Shown here piece after piece: positions 3,032-10,551 of a stretch of 34,540 bases of DNA. A program made the translations under genes and the position numbers. The notes below the pieces were generated by a model that searched no databases, was not told the DNA's origin, and saw only the letters and a list, made by a program, of their open reading frames with translations. Origin of the DNA: a virus. How positions within the stretch are numbered: position 1 is the first letter of the stretch; each line of letters begins with the position of its first letter. The stretch covers positions 1 to 34,540 of the IMG/VR virus record IMGVR_UViG_3300017748_000042. The stretch is one strand, 5' to 3'.

Positions 3032-3048
3032 TTGACTATACCTGTCAA
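3032..3048. promoter_or_regulatory. Operator-like dyad at the integrase promoter
   Basis: TTGACTATACCTGTCAA matches the dyad at 10477-10493 at 13 of 17 positions, including both outer half-sites TTGAC and TGTCAA. It overlaps the -35 box and part of the spacer, so a bound repressor would block int transcription. Binding is inferred. Confidence 0.5.
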
Positions 3049-3059
3049 TAATATATACT
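3032..3059 (+). promoter_or_regulatory. Integrase promoter
   Basis: TTGACT (3032-3037), a 16-nt spacer and TATACT (3054-3059) form a good sigma70-type promoter 27 bp before the integrase start. A strong Shine-Dalgarno GGAGG lies at 3076-3080. The -35 lies inside the operator-like dyad at 3032-3048. Confidence 0.65.
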
Positions 3060-3085
3060 AACTGTATTAATTATTGGAGGTCTGA

Positions 3086-4207
3086 ATGTTAAAAGTTGCT
3101 AAAAGAAAAGATAGAAATACTTACGTTGTTAAATTAGAAAAGATAGGTGGTGGTCGTAAGTTTTTTAAAACTTATGAAGAAGCTAGAAAGTTTGCTAATA
3201 TTAAATGGATAGAATATATTAAAGATCAGTATATACCAACTACTGTATCAGGATATAAAGCCATAGCTGAATGGTATGCTTATCAAAAAACTAGATACAC
3301 ACAAGGAGAGTTTCTAAGACAAGAGTTAAGACACAAAGAAAACATTGCTGAAAAATTAGCAAAGATTATAGTGCAAGGTAAAACTATAAAACAATGGGAT
3401 CTAGATAAACTAGTTACTCATCCAAGAAGTCCTGCTTCTATATCTCAAGAAATAATATCTCAGATATTGGCAATGGATATATCACATAAAACAATGAAGG
3501 GTTTGTATTACTCTTTTAAAAATATATTTACTTTTTTCCATGAAAGAAAGTGGACACATGAAAATGCAATAGGCTCTACAATGTTTCCAAAACAAAAACA
3601 TGGAGCAGAAGATAACAAAGCTATTCGTATATCAAAAGAAAATATAGAAAAGATTATTAGCCATGCTAAACCAGAATATAAACTTGTAATAAAGTTTGCT
3701 GCATTTACTGGTTTAAGACAAGGCGAACTTAGAGAGTTACGTTGGCAAGATATAAACTTTGATAACAACACAATAACTATATCAAGAAGCATACAAATTT
3801 TTGGAACTATCGGACATACAAAAACTAAGAATGGTCAGAGAATAGTACCTCTCATTTCTAGCATAGCACAGGAGCTTAAAGAATTGCGTATGGCTAGTGG
3901 TAGACCAGAAGATGAACAATTAGTATTTGTTGGAAAAGATGGTAAAAGAATATATGGACAAACTCTTAGAGATAATTTAGATACTGCTTGTTTATTAGGT
4001 AAGGTAGCTAGAATAAAATGGCATGACCTTAGACACTTTTATGCTTCTATACTTTTACAAACATACGGAGATGACTTGCATAAAGTAACTAGCTTTATGG
4101 GGCATGGATCTATAGAGATGACTAGAAAAGTTTATGGTCATTGGCTAGATGATAAAAAGCGTAATGCAGAAGATGCAGCAAAACTTGATGCAGCATTTAC
4201 TCTTTAA
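3086..4207 (+). CDS. int: Tyrosine recombinase (integrase)
   Basis: This 373-residue protein has an N-terminal arm-binding region (residues about 1-60, RNTYVVKL...GGRKFFKTYEEA), a SAM-like core-binding domain (about 60-170) and a C-terminal catalytic domain. The active-site residues are visible: Arg211 (TGLRQGEL), a Lys in TKTKNGQR (Lys246/248), His313 and Arg316 (HDLRH), His340 (MGHGS) and Tyr350 (VYGHW). Length and motif order fit temperate-phage integrases. It lies directly downstream of the tRNA-type attP and has its own promoter. It would insert the genome into a host tRNA gene, probably tRNA-Glu. Its 3' end overlaps the end of the convergent leftward operon by 11 bases, so leftward read-through would be antisense to it. 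Confidence 0.95.
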   Translation: MLKVAKRKDRNTYVVKLEKIGGGRKFFKTYEEARKFANIKWIEYIKDQYIPTTVSGYKAIAEWYAYQKTRYTQGEFLRQELRHKENIAEKLAKIIVQGKTIKQWDLDKLVTHPRSPASISQEIISQILAMDISHKTMKGLYYSFKNIFTFFHERKWTHENAIGSTMFPKQKHGAEDNKAIRISKENIEKIISHAKPEYKLVIKFAAFTGLRQGELRELRWQDINFDNNTITISRSIQIFGTIGHTKTKNGQRIVPLISSIAQELKELRMASGRPEDEQLVFVGKDGKRIYGQTLRDNLDTACLLGKVARIKWHDLRHFYASILLQTYGDDLHKVTSFMGHGSIEMTRKVYGHWLDDKKRNAEDAAKLDAAFTL

Positions 4208-4460
4208 AAGGATCTTTAGTATATTCAAATTCTTTATAGTGATCAAAGTTGATAGCCTTGCTTAGAAACATCTGAGCAAGGTTTAACAACTGTTCTTTAT
4301 TCACAGGCTTTTTATAAAGCTTACTGTCTACAAGAATACTAATCTCCGTTTCTGTTGCCCACAGCAGTATTCTTTTTTCCTTGTACTTTTTGGATTTCTG
4401 CTCTCGGGATATGCCATCTTCCTCTTTCTCCTGTTCTGTAGGCTTTGATATATCCGGCAT
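4197..4460 (-). CDS. Small hypothetical protein overlapping the excisionase-like gene
   Basis: An 87-residue protein with a charged, Lys/Glu-rich N-terminal third followed by ILLWATETEISILVDSKLYK and a helical NLAQMFLSKAINF segment. No family is recognised. The start at 4460 is supported by a strong Shine-Dalgarno (taaggag) eight bases upstream on the minus strand. The 3' part of the excisionase-like gene (4339-4566) shares 122 bases with it in a different frame. It is the last gene of the leftward operon and converges on int with an 11-base overlap. A role in controlling excision is possible from position only. Confidence 0.6.
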   Translation of the reverse strand: MPDISKPTEQEKEEDGISREQKSKKYKEKRILLWATETEISILVDSKLYKKPVNKEQLLNLAQMFLSKAINFDHYKEFEYTKDPFKE

Positions 4461-4566
4461 CTATAAATCTCCTTAATCTTTTACGATTAGTTTCATTAAT
4501 CTCTTCACCCCACAAAGCCTTTATCGCTTCTGCGGAATTTAAGTAACCTTTATGGGAGTAGTCCAT
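4339..4566 (-). CDS. Excisionase-like / MerR-type winged-helix DNA-binding protein
   Basis: A 75-residue protein. Residues about 6-57 read as a small winged-helix domain: GYLNSAEAIKALWG (helix), NRKRLRRFIDAGYIKAYRT (recognition helix plus turn) and RGRWHIPRAEIQKV (wing and last helix). This pattern is typical of excisionase and MerR-like N-terminal domains. Location next to int supports a recombination directionality factor that bends attP/attR DNA. Transcription is opposite to int. The C-terminal part, beyond about residue 58, is dual-coding with the 4197-4460 gene. It could instead be a transcription regulator. Confidence 0.7.
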   Translation of the reverse strand: MDYSHKGYLNSAEAIKALWGEEINETNRKRLRRFIDAGYIKAYRTGERGRWHIPRAEIQKVQGKKNTAVGNRNGD

Positions 4567-4834
4567 TTGTATCTACCTTTTCTGTTGTTGTTTCTTTAAA
4601 TGTATTAACAAACAAATTAAAACTAGCAATCTTTGTTGTGTTATATCCTTCACCAGTTCTTTTCTGTATGACTACATTTATCTTAGAGTTATTTGTATCA
4701 GAGAAATACTCAACCATTCTTTTAGCTAGTTCCTCATCCGTTACATTTAACCAACAGCTTGCAGTAACGTGATCATCAACATTCATATTACTTACAATCT
4801 TTATCTTACTATTTCCAAACTCCGGTTTACTCAT
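4550..4834 (-). CDS. Hypothetical protein downstream of the annealing protein
   Basis: A 94-residue protein starting MSKPEFGNSKIKIVSN. I chose the ATG at 4834 over an upstream ATG at 4843. It forms an ATGA overlap with the preceding stop and has aagga eight bases upstream, while the 4843 start has no room for a ribosome site. Alternating hydrophobic stretches (KIKIVSNMNVDDHV, KINVVIQKRT, KIASFNLFVNTF) suggest a small beta-rich fold. No family is recognised. Position in the recombination operon suggests an accessory DNA-metabolism role, but this is a guess. Confidence 0.65.
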   Translation of the reverse strand: MSKPEFGNSKIKIVSNMNVDDHVTASCWLNVTDEELAKRMVEYFSDTNNSKINVVIQKRTGEGYNTTKIASFNLFVNTFKETTTEKVDTNGLLP

Positions 4835-5493
4835 TCTGCACATCCTTTCATTTTAGTGTTTATAAATTGTTTAAAAACTTGGTAACTATCATTGTCTGTC
4901 TTGGAATACTCCACTAGGTATTCATTGTTAGCAGCTATCCATTTCTGGAACTCTGCTATAAACTTATACTTGCCTAGTGTCTGCATATTAATATCTCTCC
5001 ATGCTTCCCAGTTTTCTCTAGGGTGAAAAGATACATCATCTAATGGGTGTTCATCTCTTTTAGTTTCCTTAATAGTTTCTTCTACTATGGCTATCTTCTC
5101 TTGTTTCTTAACAGCATTTAACATCTCTTCTGCTGATGCGTATTCACCGCCATGCAATCCTATACTAGATAAAGCTCTACCTATTGCAGAACTCTCACAT
5201 ACTTCTACTGCTGAAGTTCTAGTAATATTAGATGAAGCTCTAACCTCTTCTGCTAATCCAGATCCGATGACTTTATTATTAGCATCTATAATCTTTGCCT
5301 GTACTCGTACAACACTATCATCTATATGTAATACAGTTGTATCTATACCAAGATTAAGACCATAGAATTTACGGAAAACTTCTACTCTATCTTTAACCAT
5401 TAAATACTTTTTATTACCTTTAACTTTTACCCCGGCAGTTGCGGTCATCTTATCTGCTTCAGCCATTACAAGTTTATGATTAATCTCAGTCAT
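4831..5493 (-). CDS. Putative single-strand annealing/recombination protein (Erf/Rad52-like)
   Basis: This 220-residue protein opens with KYLMVKDRVEVFRKFYGL. A strand-rich region follows (TTVLHIDDSVVRVQAKIID, then KVIGSGLAEEVR). The block SAVEVCESSAIGRALSSIGL (95-113) and GGEYASAEEM (115-124) come next. The alanine/glycine block ending in IGRAL, followed by a YASAEE segment, is typical of a broad group of phage annealing-type proteins (Erf/Rad52 neighbourhood). The C-terminal 90 residues are helical and lack a recognised motif. It shares its operon with a RecB-like nuclease. That is the exonuclease-plus-annealing pair used by phages for double-strand-end recombination. Its start overlaps the preceding stop. 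Confidence 0.6.
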   Translation of the reverse strand: MTEINHKLVMAEADKMTATAGVKVKGNKKYLMVKDRVEVFRKFYGLNLGIDTTVLHIDDSVVRVQAKIIDANNKVIGSGLAEEVRASSNITRTSAVEVCESSAIGRALSSIGLHGGEYASAEEMLNAVKKQEKIAIVEETIKETKRDEHPLDDVSFHPRENWEAWRDINMQTLGKYKFIAEFQKWIAANNEYLVEYSKTDNDSYQVFKQFINTKMKGCAE

Positions 5494-5692
5494 ATAAACC
5501 TGCCCAGTCTACATAGACGCATCCCATTAAATAACCAAAGATAAGAAATAATCCTGCTAAACAAATGTATTTTATAAATAGTAAATTACCTTTATGTTTT
5601 TTATGTATTGTAGTATTTTGTACGTGATCCCTTATCAAGTTGAAATTCAGACCTTCATATTCGTTAAGGGATCGTTTTAGTTTCCGCTTCAT
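5486..5692 (-). CDS. Small single-pass membrane protein
   Basis: A 68-residue protein starting MKRKLKRSLNEYEG. The ATG at 5692 is preferred over one at 5704 because GGAGG lies six bases upstream and the upstream ATG overlaps the nuclease stop. The N-terminal half is basic and cytoplasmic by the positive-inside rule. Residues about 44-63 (YICLAGLFLIFGYLMGCVYV) form one membrane helix. It lies between the nuclease and annealing-protein genes, with short overlaps. No family is recognised. Membrane proteins in early phage operons often target the host, but no specific role is shown. Confidence 0.6.
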   Translation of the reverse strand: MKRKLKRSLNEYEGLNFNLIRDHVQNTTIHKKHKGNLLFIKYICLAGLFLIFGYLMGCVYVDWAGLYD

Positions 5693-5694
5693 AA

Positions 5695-6657
5695 TTACCT
5701 CCATATCTTTTTAGCGTTATTTAAAACTGTAGGGTTTAAATCTTTCCAACCAAACATCGCACCCCATTGAGGATCACATAGTCTTAGTAAGTCCTCCACA
5801 TCCTTGGCTGTCTTTAGTAGTCGTTCTCTTCTTTGGCAACTCTCTATAATAAATGCTAGTGCATTTTGTAGTTGATCCTCTGATGGTGTAAATATTCTGT
5901 AGCCAACTCTATTTGCATAGACAATCGTTGGTATCGTCTTACCAGTTAAATGCCAATAGCCTGCAATCTGTGTCATGTGTGCAGGTCTTATCTCTTGCGG
6001 TAGACTATTTGATCTAGGAGAAATATGTACATTACCATCCCATTGGGTTTTAAGTTCTATCATTTTGCTATAGTCAGGCTTGCCATTATACATGAGGTCA
6101 CAGCCGGGTAGGGGTTTGTATAGATCCACTTCAGCTTCTAATCTATTTAATCCATTTTTACTTTGAGCTTCTTTCAATCCTTCTATGGCATGAGCAGCAA
6201 CTAGATCCATCTCACTAGCTGTGCCTTCATCAGACTTCTTCCATACCATCTCACCCTTAACCTCTTTCAGGCTGTATAATAATTTTTCTTTGTGTTCTAG
6301 TTCTGCTGTTTCTTTAGCGTGATCACGCCATGCAGGTATCTTGTATTCTCTTAACTTTTCATAACCTTGTTTTAATGCCACAGCATAGGGTATATCATCT
6401 AGTAAATGCTTATCGCATATGTCCTGGACAATCTTGCCAGAGTGCATCTTTACATTAGAGTCAAAGTATTCCTCTATAGTTTGTGATGCTAAATCTCTAT
6501 CGCCTTTAATCTCACCTTTAAGAATAGACCAAGCTTTATTGACTATTACTCTTTTTCTACACTTGTTCCAAAAAGTTTGTCCATCACTACTCGATGGATT
6601 ACTATGATGAAAATAGTATTTATCCCTTGCATACTTTGGGGTTATCTCTTCTGCCAT
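5695..6657 (-). CDS. PD-(D/E)XK nuclease, RecB/lambda-exonuclease-like
   Basis: This 320-residue protein carries the RecB-family nuclease signature in order. A Gly/Asp motif PGCDLMY (Asp187) comes first, then MIELKT (Glu201-x-Lys203), then TQIAGYW, which is the QxxxY motif (Gln230, Tyr234). These residues bind metal and DNA ends in lambda-exonuclease, Cas4 and RecB nucleases. The N-terminal 180 residues are mostly helical and charged. Paired with the annealing-type gene two genes downstream, it likely resects double-strand ends to 3' tails for annealing. A 17-base palindrome just upstream overlaps its ribosome site. Helicase motifs are absent, so it is a stand-alone nuclease. Confidence 0.8.
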   Translation of the reverse strand: MAEEITPKYARDKYYFHHSNPSSSDGQTFWNKCRKRVIVNKAWSILKGEIKGDRDLASQTIEEYFDSNVKMHSGKIVQDICDKHLLDDIPYAVALKQGYEKLREYKIPAWRDHAKETAELEHKEKLLYSLKEVKGEMVWKKSDEGTASEMDLVAAHAIEGLKEAQSKNGLNRLEAEVDLYKPLPGCDLMYNGKPDYSKMIELKTQWDGNVHISPRSNSLPQEIRPAHMTQIAGYWHLTGKTIPTIVYANRVGYRIFTPSEDQLQNALAFIIESCQRRERLLKTAKDVEDLLRLCDPQWGAMFGWKDLNPTVLNNAKKIWR

Positions 6658-6663
6658 GTTTAC

Positions 6664-6680
6664 CTCTCTAAGTTAGAGAG
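6664..6680 (-). promoter_or_regulatory. Palindrome covering the nuclease ribosome-binding site
   Basis: CTCTCTAA-G-TTAGAGAG is a perfect 8-bp dyad with one central base. It lies in the 30-base gap between the repressor stop and the nuclease start. In the leftward RNA the distal arm contains the purine-rich AGAGAGG that would serve as Shine-Dalgarno, seven bases before the ATG. It could sequester the ribosome site or be a protein-binding dyad. No T run follows. Confidence 0.55.
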
Positions 6681-6687
6681 ACAAAAA

Positions 6688-7362
6688 CTAAGTATTATGG
6701 ATCGTCATATATAGATCACTAGGATTCTGTAATGCAATCATAACATGGGTACCCCAATCTAATGCAACAGGAGCAATATGCTCAATTGAATTAGCTTGTG
6801 ATATGTATGGATTTAACAAGTGCCATTTTTGTCTAAAGTTTGGGTCGTAACTTTCTATACCAAAGTTAGCTAATGGATAAGGTATACATAATCTTATAGT
6901 TTCTTCATCTCTGACTTTACATATACTTAAATTACGTTGTATTTTATCTGACACTATTCCATCTTCAACATGCTTTCCATTAATAAATAATAATCTACCA
7001 CGCATCCAACTCTCAAGTTCTGGTGGATATTGGAAAGCTATTAAGTGTTCAGGTAAATAACAATTACCAACTATAACTTTACTATTCAGACTGTTATACA
7101 ATGACACAGTATGTGTATTATCAAGAAAACCCTTAATAGGTATTCTTTGTTCATCTACAATAAACAAATTAGGTGTTACGCCTAACACTTCTGCATACTT
7201 AGCAGCATCAACCTTACTCATATGAGTTCTGTTGTTCATGTGCCTTGACACAGTTTCAGGTGCAACACCTATTGCTTTTGCTAACTTCTTACCAGAAAAC
7301 CCTTTTTCTTCGGCTAACCTTTTTAATACACTTCCAGCCATACTACTATCACTCACAACCAT
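6688..7362 (-). CDS. CI-like repressor with XRE helix-turn-helix
   Basis: This 224-residue protein has an N-terminal XRE/lambda-repressor domain (residues about 10-62: VLKRLAEEKGFSGKKLAKAI, VAPETVSRHMNNRTHMSKVD, AAKYAEVLGV). A distinct C-terminal domain of about 150 residues follows (YLPEHLIAFQYPPELE, RGRLLFING, ALDWGTHVMIALQ). That region could be a LexA/S24-like dimerisation domain, but I see no clear Ser-Lys dyad, so self-cleavage is not supported. It is divergent from a Cro-like gene, in the usual immunity-region arrangement. The start at 7362 is supported by aggagg five bases upstream and a good promoter beyond it. It should keep lysogeny by binding the dyads at the early promoters. Confidence 0.85.
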   Translation of the reverse strand: MVVSDSSMAGSVLKRLAEEKGFSGKKLAKAIGVAPETVSRHMNNRTHMSKVDAAKYAEVLGVTPNLFIVDEQRIPIKGFLDNTHTVSLYNSLNSKVIVGNCYLPEHLIAFQYPPELESWMRGRLLFINGKHVEDGIVSDKIQRNLSICKVRDEETIRLCIPYPLANFGIESYDPNFRQKWHLLNPYISQANSIEHIAPVALDWGTHVMIALQNPSDLYMTIHNT

Positions 7363-7376
7363 TTAAACCTCCTATG

Positions 7377-7404
7377 ATAATACGTTAATAAACTGCAAAG
7401 TCAA
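7377..7404 (-). promoter_or_regulatory. Leftward promoter of the repressor operon
   Basis: On the minus strand TTGACT (7404-7399), a 16-nt spacer and TATTAT (7382-7377) form a strong sigma70-like promoter. The ribosome site aggagg (7373-7368) and the repressor ATG follow directly. Its -35 is 25 bp from the -35 of the divergent rightward promoter. Confidence 0.75.
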
Positions 7405-7429
7405 ACCCTGTCTTTCTATAATTTAGTCT

Positions 7430-7446
7430 TTGACTCTTACTGCCAA
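7430..7446. promoter_or_regulatory. Operator-like dyad at the rightward promoter
   Basis: TTGACTCTTACTGCCAA matches the dyad at 10477-10493 at 15 of 17 positions. The central CTTACTG is identical and not explained by the -35 consensus. A weaker related site (right half AAGTGGCAA) lies at 7478-7494. Repressor/Cro binding is inferred. Confidence 0.6.
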
Positions 7447-7457
7447 GCATATACAAT
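7430..7457 (+). promoter_or_regulatory. Rightward early promoter
   Basis: TTGACT (7430-7435), a 16-nt spacer and TACAAT (7452-7457) precede the Cro-like gene by about 45 bp. The -35 lies in the operator-like dyad at 7430-7446. It would drive the early right operon (7502-9767). Confidence 0.7.
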
Positions 7458-7477
7458 AACATTGACAGATGCAAATA

Positions 7478-7494
7478 ATTATACCAAGTGGCAA
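7478..7494. promoter_or_regulatory. Second, weaker operator-like site
   Basis: Read on the minus strand, TTGCCACTTGGTATAAT keeps one good half-site (TTGCCACTT) of the dyad at 10477-10493 and a degraded second half. It lies between the rightward promoter and the Cro-like gene, where a downstream operator would be expected. Confidence 0.35.
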
Positions 7495-7501
7495 TTAATT
7501 A

Positions 7502-7708
7502 ATGAAGTTAAACGAATACAGAATGAACAAAAAATGGTCTTACGGAAGGCTTGCTATGCTACTAGGTTGTAGCCACGCAACTGTATGCAGACGTTGGTGT
7601 TTACCAAATACGCACCCTAACAGTATGATACCTGACCGCAAGTTTATGAGGGCAATATTAAGATTGACAGATGGTGCAGTACAGCCAAACGATTTTTATA
7701 TGGAATAG
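7502..7708 (+). CDS. Cro-like small helix-turn-helix protein
   Basis: A 68-residue protein that is largely one DNA-binding domain. YGRLAMLLGCSHATVCRRWC (about residues 14-33) reads as a helix-turn-helix, with Gly in the turn and SHATV in the recognition helix. The C-terminal PDRKFMRAILRLTDG resembles the last helix of Cro/YdaS-type proteins. It is the first gene of the rightward early operon, divergent from the CI-like repressor. That is the position of Cro in lambdoid immunity regions. It probably represses the repressor promoter during lytic growth. No strong Shine-Dalgarno precedes the ATG. Confidence 0.75.
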   Translation: MKLNEYRMNKKWSYGRLAMLLGCSHATVCRRWCLPNTHPNSMIPDRKFMRAILRLTDGAVQPNDFYME

Positions 7709-7748
7709 ATAGAATATGAAACATTTAATGACAATAAGTATAAAAGTG

Positions 7749-7763
7749 ATTCGATGAGCGAAT
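7749..7763 (+). promoter_or_regulatory. Small inverted repeat with the start codon in its loop
   Basis: ATTCG (7749-7753) and CGAAT (7759-7763) flank a 5-nt loop ATGAG that holds the start codon of the 7754 gene. No clear Shine-Dalgarno is present. Exposure of the AUG in a hairpin loop might assist initiation. Confidence 0.35.
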
Positions 7764-8005
7764 ATCAAAGACTACGGGTAAGCTTGCAATGGCAGCCTAT
7801 TGCTTTCAAAAGACCAAACGCAAGTAAGTGGACAGAGATAGAGCCTGATGTAGTGATACAAGCAAGACAGGATTTTGATAGAGGACACATAGATATGTGC
7901 CAGAAAAAGGGTGCTAATGGGTATACGCATCTTATGGTTAAGAAAGCACAGGACATGATGAATAAACCAAAGAAGCGTAAGCCTTATTTTGGGAAGGGTA
8001 ACTAG
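7754..8005 (+). CDS. Hypothetical early protein
   Basis: An 83-residue protein starting MSEYQRLRVSLQWQ. The C-terminus is basic (KKPKKRKPYFGKGN-like). The middle (PDVVIQARQDFDRGHIDMCQ and GYTHLMVKKAQ) looks helical with polar loops. No family is recognised. It sits second in the rightward early operon. Its stop overlaps the GTG start of the next gene, showing coupling. Such small early proteins often regulate or redirect host functions, but nothing here specifies one. Confidence 0.65.
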   Translation: MSEYQRLRVSLQWQPIAFKRPNASKWTEIEPDVVIQARQDFDRGHIDMCQKKGANGYTHLMVKKAQDMMNKPKKRKPYFGKGN

Positions 8006-8166
8006 TGAAGTATGAGATTATCATAAAGCTTAATGCTAACAGAAGGCCAACCCTTGCAGAGCTAAACGACTTTCTCTTTTGCAGAATAAGGGATAACGAC
8101 TTGAAGTATACTGTAAACACTATGGGAGAACCTATGGAATTAAAGAGGGATAATGGCAAGAAATAA
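8005..8166 (+). CDS. Small hypothetical protein with GTG start
   Basis: A 53-residue reading frame beginning with GTG overlapping the previous TAG (taGTG), with ggaaggg as ribosome site about six bases upstream. The protein runs VKYEIIIKLNANRRPT, then LAELNDFLFCRIRDND, ending in KRDNGKK. Its 3' end overlaps the methyltransferase start by 14 bases. The tight packing on both sides and the good ribosome site support it as a gene. Function is unknown. Confidence 0.6.
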   Translation: MKYEIIIKLNANRRPTLAELNDFLFCRIRDNDLKYTVNTMGEPMELKRDNGKK

Positions 8167-8716
8167 GCATGACTTCTACCCAACACCCTATAGCATTGTA
8201 GATACTGTTGTAAGGCTCGTAGACGAGCAATGGGATGTCAATAGGATCTGGGAGTGCTGTGCAGGGGATATGCGTTTCAGTAATGCTTTAGGCAGGAATG
8301 ATAGGCAAATAATATCTACGGACATAAGAACAAACCAGAACTTCTACTGGTATAAGGAAACACTAGCCCCGGCTTTGGTAACTAATCCACCTTTTAACAG
8401 CATAAGAGAGTTTATCGATCATGCTTTTGCTATAGGGGTAGAGAAGATGGCATTGGTATGCCCAGAGCGTTTATGGGCGTGTGGAAGGGGTTATGCACAA
8501 TGGAACAGGCATAGGCCTAGCCATTGGTACAACCTGACATGGAGGGAGGATTATCTTGGTAAGGGTGGCAAGCCGGATAGAGCATTAGCCATAGCGATAT
8601 GGAACACGCCACACTCGGAGCAATGCCAGTATCAGGTATTGGATAAACAAAGCAATCAAGGAGATTTATATGAATTACATAGCAGCAGTGCAAGGCAAGA
8701 AGTGGGTGCAGTATAA
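8153..8716 (+). CDS. DNA adenine methyltransferase (phage type)
   Basis: A 187-residue protein with DFYPTP near the N-terminus (7-12). The AdoMet-binding motif I is IWECCAGDMRFSNAL (Glu34 to Gly38). Asp57 in STDIR may bind the ribose, and the catalytic motif is TNPPF (78-81). NPPF in place of DPPY/DPPW is seen in several phage N6-adenine and related methyltransferases. The protein is short, with a small C-terminal target-recognition part (SHWYNLTWREDY). It has no restriction partner here, so it is a solitary enzyme. It may protect phage DNA or time replication or transcription. The last residues (HSSSARQEVGAV) overlap the next small gene, so they may be unimportant. Confidence 0.8.
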   Translation: MARNKHDFYPTPYSIVDTVVRLVDEQWDVNRIWECCAGDMRFSNALGRNDRQIISTDIRTNQNFYWYKETLAPALVTNPPFNSIREFIDHAFAIGVEKMALVCPERLWACGRGYAQWNRHRPSHWYNLTWREDYLGKGGKPDRALAIAIWNTPHSEQCQYQVLDKQSNQGDLYELHSSSARQEVGAV

Positions 8717-8816
8717 GATGTATAAGCTTTTTAATGATATTAATGCAGAGATTTATTTACGCAAGAAGTACAAGGATAAGCTTTTAGCTATCTATCCTAT
8801 TGTGAGAGAGTTGTGA
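8670..8816 (+). CDS. Small hypothetical protein
   Basis: A 48-residue frame starting MNYIAAVQGKKWVQYKMYK and ending AIYPIVREL. The ATG has an excellent Shine-Dalgarno (aaggag, seven bases upstream) inside the end of the methyltransferase gene. The TGA overlaps the GTG start of the next gene. The protein is basic and helical with many aromatics. No family is recognised. The strong ribosome site and the coupled 3' end make it likely to be translated. Confidence 0.6.
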   Translation: MNYIAAVQGKKWVQYKMYKLFNDINAEIYLRKKYKDKLLAIYPIVREL

Positions 8817-9358
8817 GAGTCACTATAGATAACACTAGTGTTAACACTAGTAATAACCAGTTATCTAGAGAAGCAGTAACAACCCACCTAGATTCTTATT
8901 GTTTTAAAAGAGAGCTAATTAGAGAAGCTATATATAGCACTATAGTTAACTATAGAGTCTATACTAGTACTAGTTATTACTTGTTGTCAGAAAGGGTTGT
9001 CAAGAGGGATTTTGGAAACACTAAGGAATTAGCACGTTTTAAGAGAGAGATTGTACTTGTCAATGATTGCAGTATTGATGAAAACAATCAAGAAAGCGAA
9101 TCACTTGCAGTAGATGTTGAGGATTTACAGGATTTGTTAAGACGGACAACGCTTAACATGAATGCACAATATCGACAGGCAAAGGATAGGCGTAGAAGGA
9201 TGGATGGTATTGACTGGAGAATGCAAAGAGTGTTTAGAACCCTTCGTAGAAGATTAAGCATAGACAGGTATAATGAAACAGTAAAGTATGTGGGTGGGTT
9301 ATCCAGAGTTGATAAGAGTGATTGGCTAGACGAAGCAGAGGTATTATATGAACTCTAG
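8813..9358 (+). CDS. Unknown early protein whose 5' half holds a palindrome cluster
   Basis: This 181-residue protein starts from GTG overlapping the previous stop (GTGA), with agagag upstream as a weak ribosome site. No family is recognised. The N-terminal 60 residues are rich in Ser, Thr, Asn and Tyr (TSVNTS, STIVNYRVYTSTSYY). Much of this composition follows from perfect DNA palindromes in the coding sequence. Then comes an acidic segment (ENNQESESLAVDVEDLQDLL) and a strongly basic helix (YRQAKDRRRRMDGIDWRMQR, FRTLRRRLS) that could bind DNA. It occupies the slot that lambda O fills: early right operon, after cro. I therefore consider a replication-initiator role possible, but sequence alone does not show it. 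Confidence 0.65.
   Translation: MRVTIDNTSVNTSNNQLSREAVTTHLDSYCFKRELIREAIYSTIVNYRVYTSTSYYLLSERVVKRDFGNTKELARFKREIVLVNDCSIDENNQESESLAVDVEDLQDLLRRTTLNMNAQYRQAKDRRRRMDGIDWRMQRVFRTLRRRLSIDRYNETVKYVGGLSRVDKSDWLDEAEVLYEL
8834..8974. repeat. Cluster of perfect palindromes (candidate origin or binding array)
   Basis: Four perfect palindromes lie within 141 bp. ACTAGTGTTAACACTAGT (8834-8851, 18 bp) and CTATAGTTAACTATAG (8940-8955, 16 bp) share a GTTAAC centre. GCTATATATAGC is at 8927-8938 and ACTAGTACTAGT at 8963-8974 (12 bp each). The last three are nearly contiguous. The cluster is AT-rich and inside the gene at 8813-9358. I see no comparable concentration elsewhere in the window. Confidence 0.7.
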
Positions 9359-9767
9359 GTTGTTAGCAATGAACTGGGATATGCCTAGTCTTGATAGATT
9401 GTATATGGAAGCAGCTACTACCTTGCATCGATTGCCACCTGTTCTAAGAAAGAAGCATAGTTCGTTATGGCCTAGTTATGCCTTAGCAAATGCTTGGAGT
9501 GGGTATGGTTATGATAATGAAGTTCGATTACATCCTACTACAGAGGATATAACACGATTGGAGTTTGCTTTGGATATAGGATGGGATCTAGAGAAGGAGT
9601 ATAGGGTAATGTTATGGTATACTGCTCATAGTGCTGTTAATAGAGAGCGTGGCCCTAAGTGGAAGGCTTTATCTAAAAGATTTCATTGTGATGCCAGAAC
9701 TGTGAAGGGTAAGTATGAGAAAGCCCTTATCAAAGCATACTATCTTATCAAAGGGCTTCAGAGTTAA
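9348..9767 (+). CDS. DUF6362-like protein, possible late regulator
   Basis: A 139-residue protein. The C-terminal half (VMLWYTAHSAVNRERGPKWK, then ALSKRFHCDARTVKGKYEKA) reads as a helix-turn-helix resembling sigma region 4 or DUF6362. The N-terminal half (RLYMEAATTLHRLPPVLR, SLWPSYALANAWSGYG) is typical of the same family, which often sits just before small-terminase genes. It ends the rightward early operon. Position and fold suggest a transcription factor for the late genes, similar in role to ArpU/RinA or Q. It overlaps the previous gene by 11 bases and converges with the next gene by 4. Confidence 0.7.
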   Translation: MNSRLLAMNWDMPSLDRLYMEAATTLHRLPPVLRKKHSSLWPSYALANAWSGYGYDNEVRLHPTTEDITRLEFALDIGWDLEKEYRVMLWYTAHSAVNRERGPKWKALSKRFHCDARTVKGKYEKALIKAYYLIKGLQS

Positions 9768-9955
9768 GCGGCTAGTCGTAGTACCTTTATGGATAAACCA
9801 TTGGTAACCATACCGCAGTATATGTCATTAGCGTATCTACGCTCTGCTGTGTAGTTATTGTTAGCTACATGGTAACTCCACCAGTCAAGAGCTTGATTGC
9901 TCTTGAGATGGAATTTACATATAGAACCATGATCAGTTATTAGTACATCAACCAT
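9764..9955 (-). CDS. Small hypothetical protein of a leftward two-gene cassette
   Basis: A 63-residue protein. The N-terminus VDVLITDHGSICKFHLKSNQ reads as two beta strands and a turn. ALDWWSYHVANNNYTAERRY follows, then a helical end. Similar small proteins starting with VLI.DHGSI appear in many phages without known function. It overlaps the upstream leftward gene by one base at ATAATG, with agaggtg as ribosome site. Its stop meets that of the convergent 9348-9767 gene. Together with its partner it forms a separate leftward unit inside an otherwise rightward genome. Confidence 0.65.
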   Translation of the reverse strand: MVDVLITDHGSICKFHLKSNQALDWWSYHVANNNYTAERRYANDIYCGMVTNGLSIKVLRLAA

Positions 9956-10437
9956 TATGCACCTCTTTTCTTTTCAAGCTCTGCTATTCTTTCAGCAATA
10001 ATAGCCATTTCTTTTGTTACTAGATCCTTGTAACCATCAAAGCCACCATCGTATATAACTTCATGTCTTTGTGTAGCATCATCAAAGTTTAGTAACCATG
10101 CTTCTACTTCTATGTTTACATAACCGGCATCGTTAAAAGATACTTCATAATGATACTCTCTGTCAGCATGAGCAACAGGATCTTCTATCAATTCATAAAC
10201 TGGTTGTTCTGAACGATATTTACTAGCTTCATACTTATGGCTCATTATTATGTTAACAAACTTTTTAAAGTGCGGATGCTCTATTGACCTGCTAGCATTT
10301 GCGTTTGCATTCTTATATGCTTCTGCCAAAGCTAGCTGTATAGTTTGTCCTGCTTCAGCTATGTAACCATCATAGTGTCTATAAAAGTGAATGGTTGAGT
10401 TATCAGTTCTTATTGTTAATGTACTTCTTGTACTCAT
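9955..10437 (-). CDS. Hypothetical phage protein (MSTRS family)
   Basis: A 160-residue protein starting MSTRSTLTIRTDNSTIHFYR followed by HYDGY. This N-terminus is shared by a common group of phage and plasmid proteins of unknown function. The later part has acidic beta-like stretches (YHYEVSFNDAGYVNIEVEAW) and a C-terminal helix (MAIIAERIAELEKKRGA). The ATG has a strong ribosome site (ggaggtctgaaATG), nearly identical to that of integrase. It lies 40-56 bp downstream of an operator-like dyad, so it may be repressor-controlled. Confidence 0.7.
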   Translation of the reverse strand: MSTRSTLTIRTDNSTIHFYRHYDGYIAEAGQTIQLALAEAYKNANANASRSIEHPHFKKFVNIIMSHKYEASKYRSEQPVYELIEDPVAHADREYHYEVSFNDAGYVNIEVEAWLLNFDDATQRHEVIYDGGFDGYKDLVTKEMAIIAERIAELEKKRGA

Positions 10438-10476
10438 TTCAGACCTCCATTTGTTATGCTATATGTTTTAATAGTA

Positions 10477-10493
10477 TTGACACTTACTGTCAA
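10477..10493. promoter_or_regulatory. Operator-like perfect dyad upstream of the leftward cassette
   Basis: TTGACA-CTTAC-TGTCAA has perfect 6-bp arms around a 5-bp centre. It is the best copy of the motif also found at 3032-3048 and 7430-7446. On the minus strand its TTGACA can serve as -35, with TAAAAC (10470-10465) 17 nt downstream as a fair -10 for the leftward cassette. On the plus strand the -10 match (TTGATA, 10499-10504) is poor. Confidence 0.6.
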
Positions 10494-10522: not shown

Positions 10523-10551
10523 TTGCCAATGTATCGAAAACCCTTTATTTA
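10523..10551 (+). promoter_or_regulatory. Possible promoter for the terminase operon
   Basis: TTGCCA (10523-10528), a 17-nt spacer and TATTTA (10546-10551) give a moderate sigma70 match about 85 bp before the small terminase gene. It is the best candidate in this gap but not a strong one. Confidence 0.35.

Follow-up and report, generated by a model that had tools for sequence, protein, structure and literature searches.

The locus raises the question of whether the promoters of an integrase gene (int), of a Cro-like gene (cro) with the early rightward genes and of a leftward two-gene cassette are governed through one common operator and, if so, by which regulator. The window, that is, the whole stretch of 34,540 bases analysed here (an IMG/VR virus record), encodes an integrase, CI-like and Cro-like proteins, an Sf6-like small terminase and a podovirus tail tubular protein with 55% identity to its counterpart in Pelagibacter phage HTVC010P. 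In close relatives the genes are ordered int, a leftward nuclease block, cI (where present), cro, a rightward block, the leftward cassette, terS and terL. We consider it probable that the inverted repeat TTGACA-N5-TGTCAA is the lysogeny-switch operator of a marine clade of HTVC010P-like temperate podoviruses, where it would be bound by the Cro-like protein, and most likely also by the CI-like repressor (CI), to repress the int, cro and cassette promoters (Table 1). A tRNA 3'-end sequence (ggttcgattcccgtaggggacgcca) lies 5' of int at about 2946-2970 (within 2941-2971) and is a likely attP; ARAGORN finds no whole tRNA. Searching GTDB genomes with the Cro alignment returned only seven distant loci and no SAR11 prophage, and the phage records searched held no relatives of cI or of the cassette.

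Table 1. Coordinates of the putative operators, the predicted cI promoter and the genes discussed in the text.
Feature	Position	Strand	Remarks
int promoter operator, TTGACTATACCTGTCAA	3032-3048	+	11/12 to the dyad TTGACA-N5-TGTCAA; kept upstream of int in relatives
Tyrosine integrase	3086-4207	+	under operator
CI-like repressor	6688-7362	-	224 aa; HTH_3 domain and C-terminal domain
Predicted cI promoter, TTGACT-N16-TATTAT	7377-7404	-	promoter scan; no operator over it
cro/early rightward promoter operator, TTGACTCTTACTGCCAA	7430-7446	+	10/12; cluster statistics upstream of cro
Cro-like protein	7502-7708	+	68 aa; five helices; likely operator binder
Leftward cassette gene 2	9764-9955	-	63 aa; no assigned function
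Leftward cassette gene 1	9955-10437	-	160 aa; no assigned function
Leftward cassette operator, TTGACACTTACTGTCAA	10477-10493	-	12/12, perfect dyad TTGACA-N5-TGTCAA; many relatives carry a site ahead of terS
Probable second, weaker tandem site, TTGATAGAAGGTGTTAA	10499-10515		10/12; present in L016 and, in weaker form, L043, but not everywhere

We confirmed that the three 17-bp sites proposed in a first-pass annotation stand at the positions and have exactly the sequences claimed for them. A gene starts 54-72 bp downstream of each (56 bp for the cassette), and no other such site occurs in 34.5 kb. What is conserved is the inverted repeat, a left and a right half-site. The half-sites of the motif that had been proposed are indeed kept in relatives, but the CTTACTG centre is present in only two of the three sites, varies across relatives and was rejected as a conserved element. 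The genome-wide motif search suggested at the time, run with TTGACWNNNNNTGYCAA (TTGACW-N5-TGYCAA) at zero mismatches, found these three sites and nothing else, against a mean of 0.01 matches in 100 dinucleotide shuffles, none of which reached 4 (a palindromic site is scored on both strands); the pattern was derived from these sites themselves, and an independent test lies in the relatives. With two mismatches the window yields 16 matches where 15.1 are expected, which is chance level, and counts with two to three mismatches stay at or near it, so that weak matches are uninformative alone and only near-perfect sites or conserved positions count. A degraded fourth site that had been placed at 7478-7494 does not hold up, since it scores 8/12, a value equalled or exceeded at 125 positions of the window, and the relative L043 lacks it. 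Given these chance-level counts one might read the likeness of the three promoters as accidental, but with 0.01 exact matches expected and conservation across many lineages this seems to us extremely improbable, and the comparative sequence data already refute it.

Scans with CI, the cassette protein, the integrase and the Cro-like protein yielded related loci from IMG/VR (L004-L117). Three places in these relatives, ahead of int, of the Cro-like gene and of terS, retain the half-sites; at the first two the centre has drifted. At int the operator is conserved in L014-L021, L024, L035 and L047, in L014 despite a distance of about 340 bp to the int start, and the sites found there (including TTGACTCTATCTGTCAA, TTGACTCTACCTGTCAA, TTGACCATATCTGCCAA, TTGACTTATTATGTCAA and TTGACATTTTCTGTCAA) have constant half-sites around a variable centre: information content is 1.75 bits per column in the half-sites, compared with 0.67 in the centre and 1.04 in the flanks, in site sets chosen by hand from largely homologous places. 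The site before terS is present in L043, L016, L018, L009, L007, L078, L074 and L100, and here the centre is also more conserved. For cro, we took 22 Cro clusters at under 80% identity and scored the best TTGACA-N5-TGTCAA match in the 140 bp upstream of each. The best scores sum to 218, compared with 169 +/- 3.6 in shuffles, and 8 of the 22 clusters reach at least 11/12 where shuffles predict 0.035. Right halves are imperfect at some cro promoters (GTTAA, GACAT), and the L090 Cro group has no site at its cro promoter. Among 26 sites of at least 11/12 in 22 loci, some of them related, 22 are intergenic on a simple ORF map. The relatives share ancestry, and homologous sites are therefore not fully independent.

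In the window, a sigma-70 scan places the left half of the int operator on the -35 box of TTGACT-N16-TATACT (3032-3059) and that of the cro operator on the -35 box of TTGACT-N16-TACAAT (7430-7457). These are the two top-scoring plus-strand matches in the region, and each operator extends from the -35 box into the upstream end of its 16-bp spacer. Over its full extent the scan gives no more matches than shuffled sequence does, and the two promoter calls accordingly rest on position and conservation. A second TTGACA near 7462 was considered as the -35 box of cro and rejected, as it is not conserved. For the leftward cassette we saw no convincing -10 box in the window; TTGACA-N16-TATTTA can be read by eye at the cassette promoter of some relatives. 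The overlap with -35 boxes noted in the first-pass annotation is thus seen at the predicted int and cro promoters, and the right half, which it held to be unexplained by promoter consensus, is conserved nonetheless. An alternative is that no phage operator is involved and that the sites serve as strong -35 elements or are recognised by a host regulator; the left half is a consensus-like -35 box at int and cro, and other regulators may overlap -35 boxes. Yet the right half falls in a spacer that the promoter does not constrain and is still conserved, and among spacer lengths of 0-20 only 5 bp is enriched upstream of cro (218 against 169-184), a comparison that controls for -35 boxes because these raise the left half at any spacer. 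Furthermore, in phages isolated on SAR11 strain HTCC1062, virulent relatives whose Cro proteins are divergent, the sequence scanned has no site of at least 11/12. We therefore regard a role as promoter element or host-regulator target as very unlikely. The sites and their conservation in relatives instead support a predicted regulon of int, the cro/early promoter and the leftward cassette.

Which regulator would act at these operators is best approached through relatives that appear to lack cI. A CI profile matched none of eight such records, some of which are fragments, and all of eight positive-control records. No cI occurs in the records of L077, L078 and L079 (members of the L071 group), yet L074, L077 and L078 have three sites each at 11-12/12; L024 plus L009 show two perfect sites, and L047 has 10/12 sites only. 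In L024, L047, L071, L074, L077-L079, L007 and L011 a nuclease homologue adjoins cro. If only CI bound the operator, sites in cI-less phages would be relics of its recent loss, and this would fit with the conserved recognition helices of CI and with three of the cI-less lineages, L024, L035 and L047, where the integrase match starts only at residue 53, like a decaying lysogeny module. Relics should drift, however, and neither the three near-perfect sites of phages without cI nor the perfect ones of L024 and L009 have done so; we find this explanation unlikely. Since several cI-less phages have two or three operators, retention of the sites seems to require no more than Cro. Relatives without cI (noted at L024, 13413-13505, and L047, 9948-10000) also still have an integrase gene, and no tRNA end is present in the printed int-upstream sequence of L024 and L035; cI-less phages that bear an integrase are possibly moving from temperate to virulent life.

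The Cro-like gene has only a weak Pfam match, and its predicted structure is all-helical (pLDDT 94.7) with weak fold matches to Xfaso 1 Cro (E 0.17), P22 Cro and 434 Cro. Between close relatives with different CI proteins the Cro-like protein is 60-97% identical and CI 33-62%, and the Cro-like protein is conserved even where CI is absent. In an alignment by eye, the helix residues T, V and R coincide in CI PETVSRHM and Cro HATVCRRW. The site is missing in alphaproteobacterial Cro relatives whose recognition helices differ; L120, whose helix has RRW, carries TTGACTTATTGTGTCAA. The recognition helix also differs in virulent HTVC010P, without a site of at least 11/12, and in Skadi-4, where the roughly half that was scanned holds no such site and the chance count is likewise below 1. 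Helix and site track each other imperfectly, as L087 and L104 retain sites despite differing Cro recognition helices. Upstream of the Cro-like gene in L124 and L125, Sphingomonas Cro relatives with another recognition helix, TTGGCA/TTGCCA-type repeats are found instead, possibly reflecting another specificity. Retention in cI-less phages, conservation of Cro, the likeness of the helices and the lack of near-perfect sites in HTVC010P and the scanned half of Skadi-4 together make operator binding by the Cro-like protein, at sites shared with the CI-like repressor, the most economical and, as judged from sequence comparison, the most likely arrangement. The first-pass annotation had not chosen between the two regulators; the Cro-like protein probably suffices for binding, and CI probably uses the site too.

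The CI model (pLDDT 88.8) has the lambda-186 hybrid repressor as its top two fold matches among solved structures and 186 CI as its fourth, with TM scores of about 0.3 and about 12-14% identity to these 186-type matches. Pfam finds no S24 peptidase domain in 18 CI members, so RecA-driven self-cleavage is not indicated, and the invariant or nearly invariant columns contain no Ser or Lys outside the helix-turn-helix; CI may be induced by another route. Recognition helices remain ETVSRH-like, above C-terminal domains that are 11-35% identical, except for L018 at 62%. These domains are highly diverse beside a conserved helix-turn-helix in L015/L043, L016, L017 and L019, and may answer to different induction signals under a shared immunity.

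We infer binding, repression and the sharing of sites by both proteins as follows. The Cro-like protein, and in all likelihood CI as well, would bind as a dimer with one recognition helix in each half-site and keep RNA polymerase off int, off cro with the rightward early genes, and off the leftward cassette before terS; binding would exclude the polymerase since the -35 box forms the left half. CI would hold these promoters off in the lysogen, and in early lytic growth Cro would turn them down and limit its own synthesis.

Two kinds of additional site were absent from the first-pass annotation. The tandem copy next to the cassette operator (Table 1) and the centre of the 10477 site are 22 bp apart. 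An operator-like dyad also follows directly after the cro stop codon in L018 (at 5204), L024 (13710), L044, L043, L047 (10214), L007 and L011; in L047 and L007 the next ribosome-binding site follows immediately, so that a promoter would not fit, and in the window this position is degenerate (8-9/12). It may be, though we offer this tentatively and think it rather doubtful, that in cI-less phages the old lysogeny operators form a genome-wide regulon controlled by the Cro-like protein alone, with the post-cro copies acting as roadblocks in the early operon. Between the pre-terS operator and terS, a further element (TTGCCAATGTATCGAAAA, 10523-10545) is conserved in L004, L007 and L011 and has drifted in L043, L018, L009 and L078; it is possibly a packaging or late-gene signal.

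Taken as a whole, the operator set would be an ordinary phage repressor/Cro regulon, apparently undescribed for this group; the open-access papers searched, outside which many journals lie, contain no operator of this kind in these phages. It provides a testable control circuit with defined candidate sites for temperate relatives of HTVC010P, whose group is among the most abundant of marine phages, and the cI-less relatives offer a test case for whether operators persist after loss of their repressor because Cro still uses them. As one site is shared under diverse CI C-terminal domains, cross-immunity is predicted between phages with different repressors.

In lambda, a dyad operator on the early promoter serves two helix-turn-helix proteins encoded by divergent cI and cro genes. 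The window resembles lambda, 434 and P22 in its divergent repressor and Cro-like helix-turn-helix genes and in a dyad operator overlapping the predicted early promoter, with dual binding putative here. It departs from these lambdoid systems in its half-site, in having, at most promoters, a single strong site instead of a row of three, in placing the same operator also at int and at a leftward accessory cassette, and in a CI without a recognisable S24 peptidase domain by Pfam. With phage 186 it shares the top fold matches of CI, although global similarity is low. Mycobacteriophage L5 and other Cluster A phages have up to about 30 stoperators (PMC6550527), one motif found at promoters and within operons, and the promoterless-looking post-cro copy in our relatives recalls this; here, however, the sites of at least 11/12 number 1-4 per locus, are palindromic and not asymmetric and lie mostly upstream of genes, so that the many asymmetric promoterless sites of the L5 type are not seen. 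Although HTVC010P differs in having no annotated integrase and, like the scanned part of Skadi-4, no near-perfect operator, HTVC010P-type pelagiphages resemble the window in the tail protein (55% identity) and in a similar order of leftward block, small regulator gene, leftward cassette and terL.
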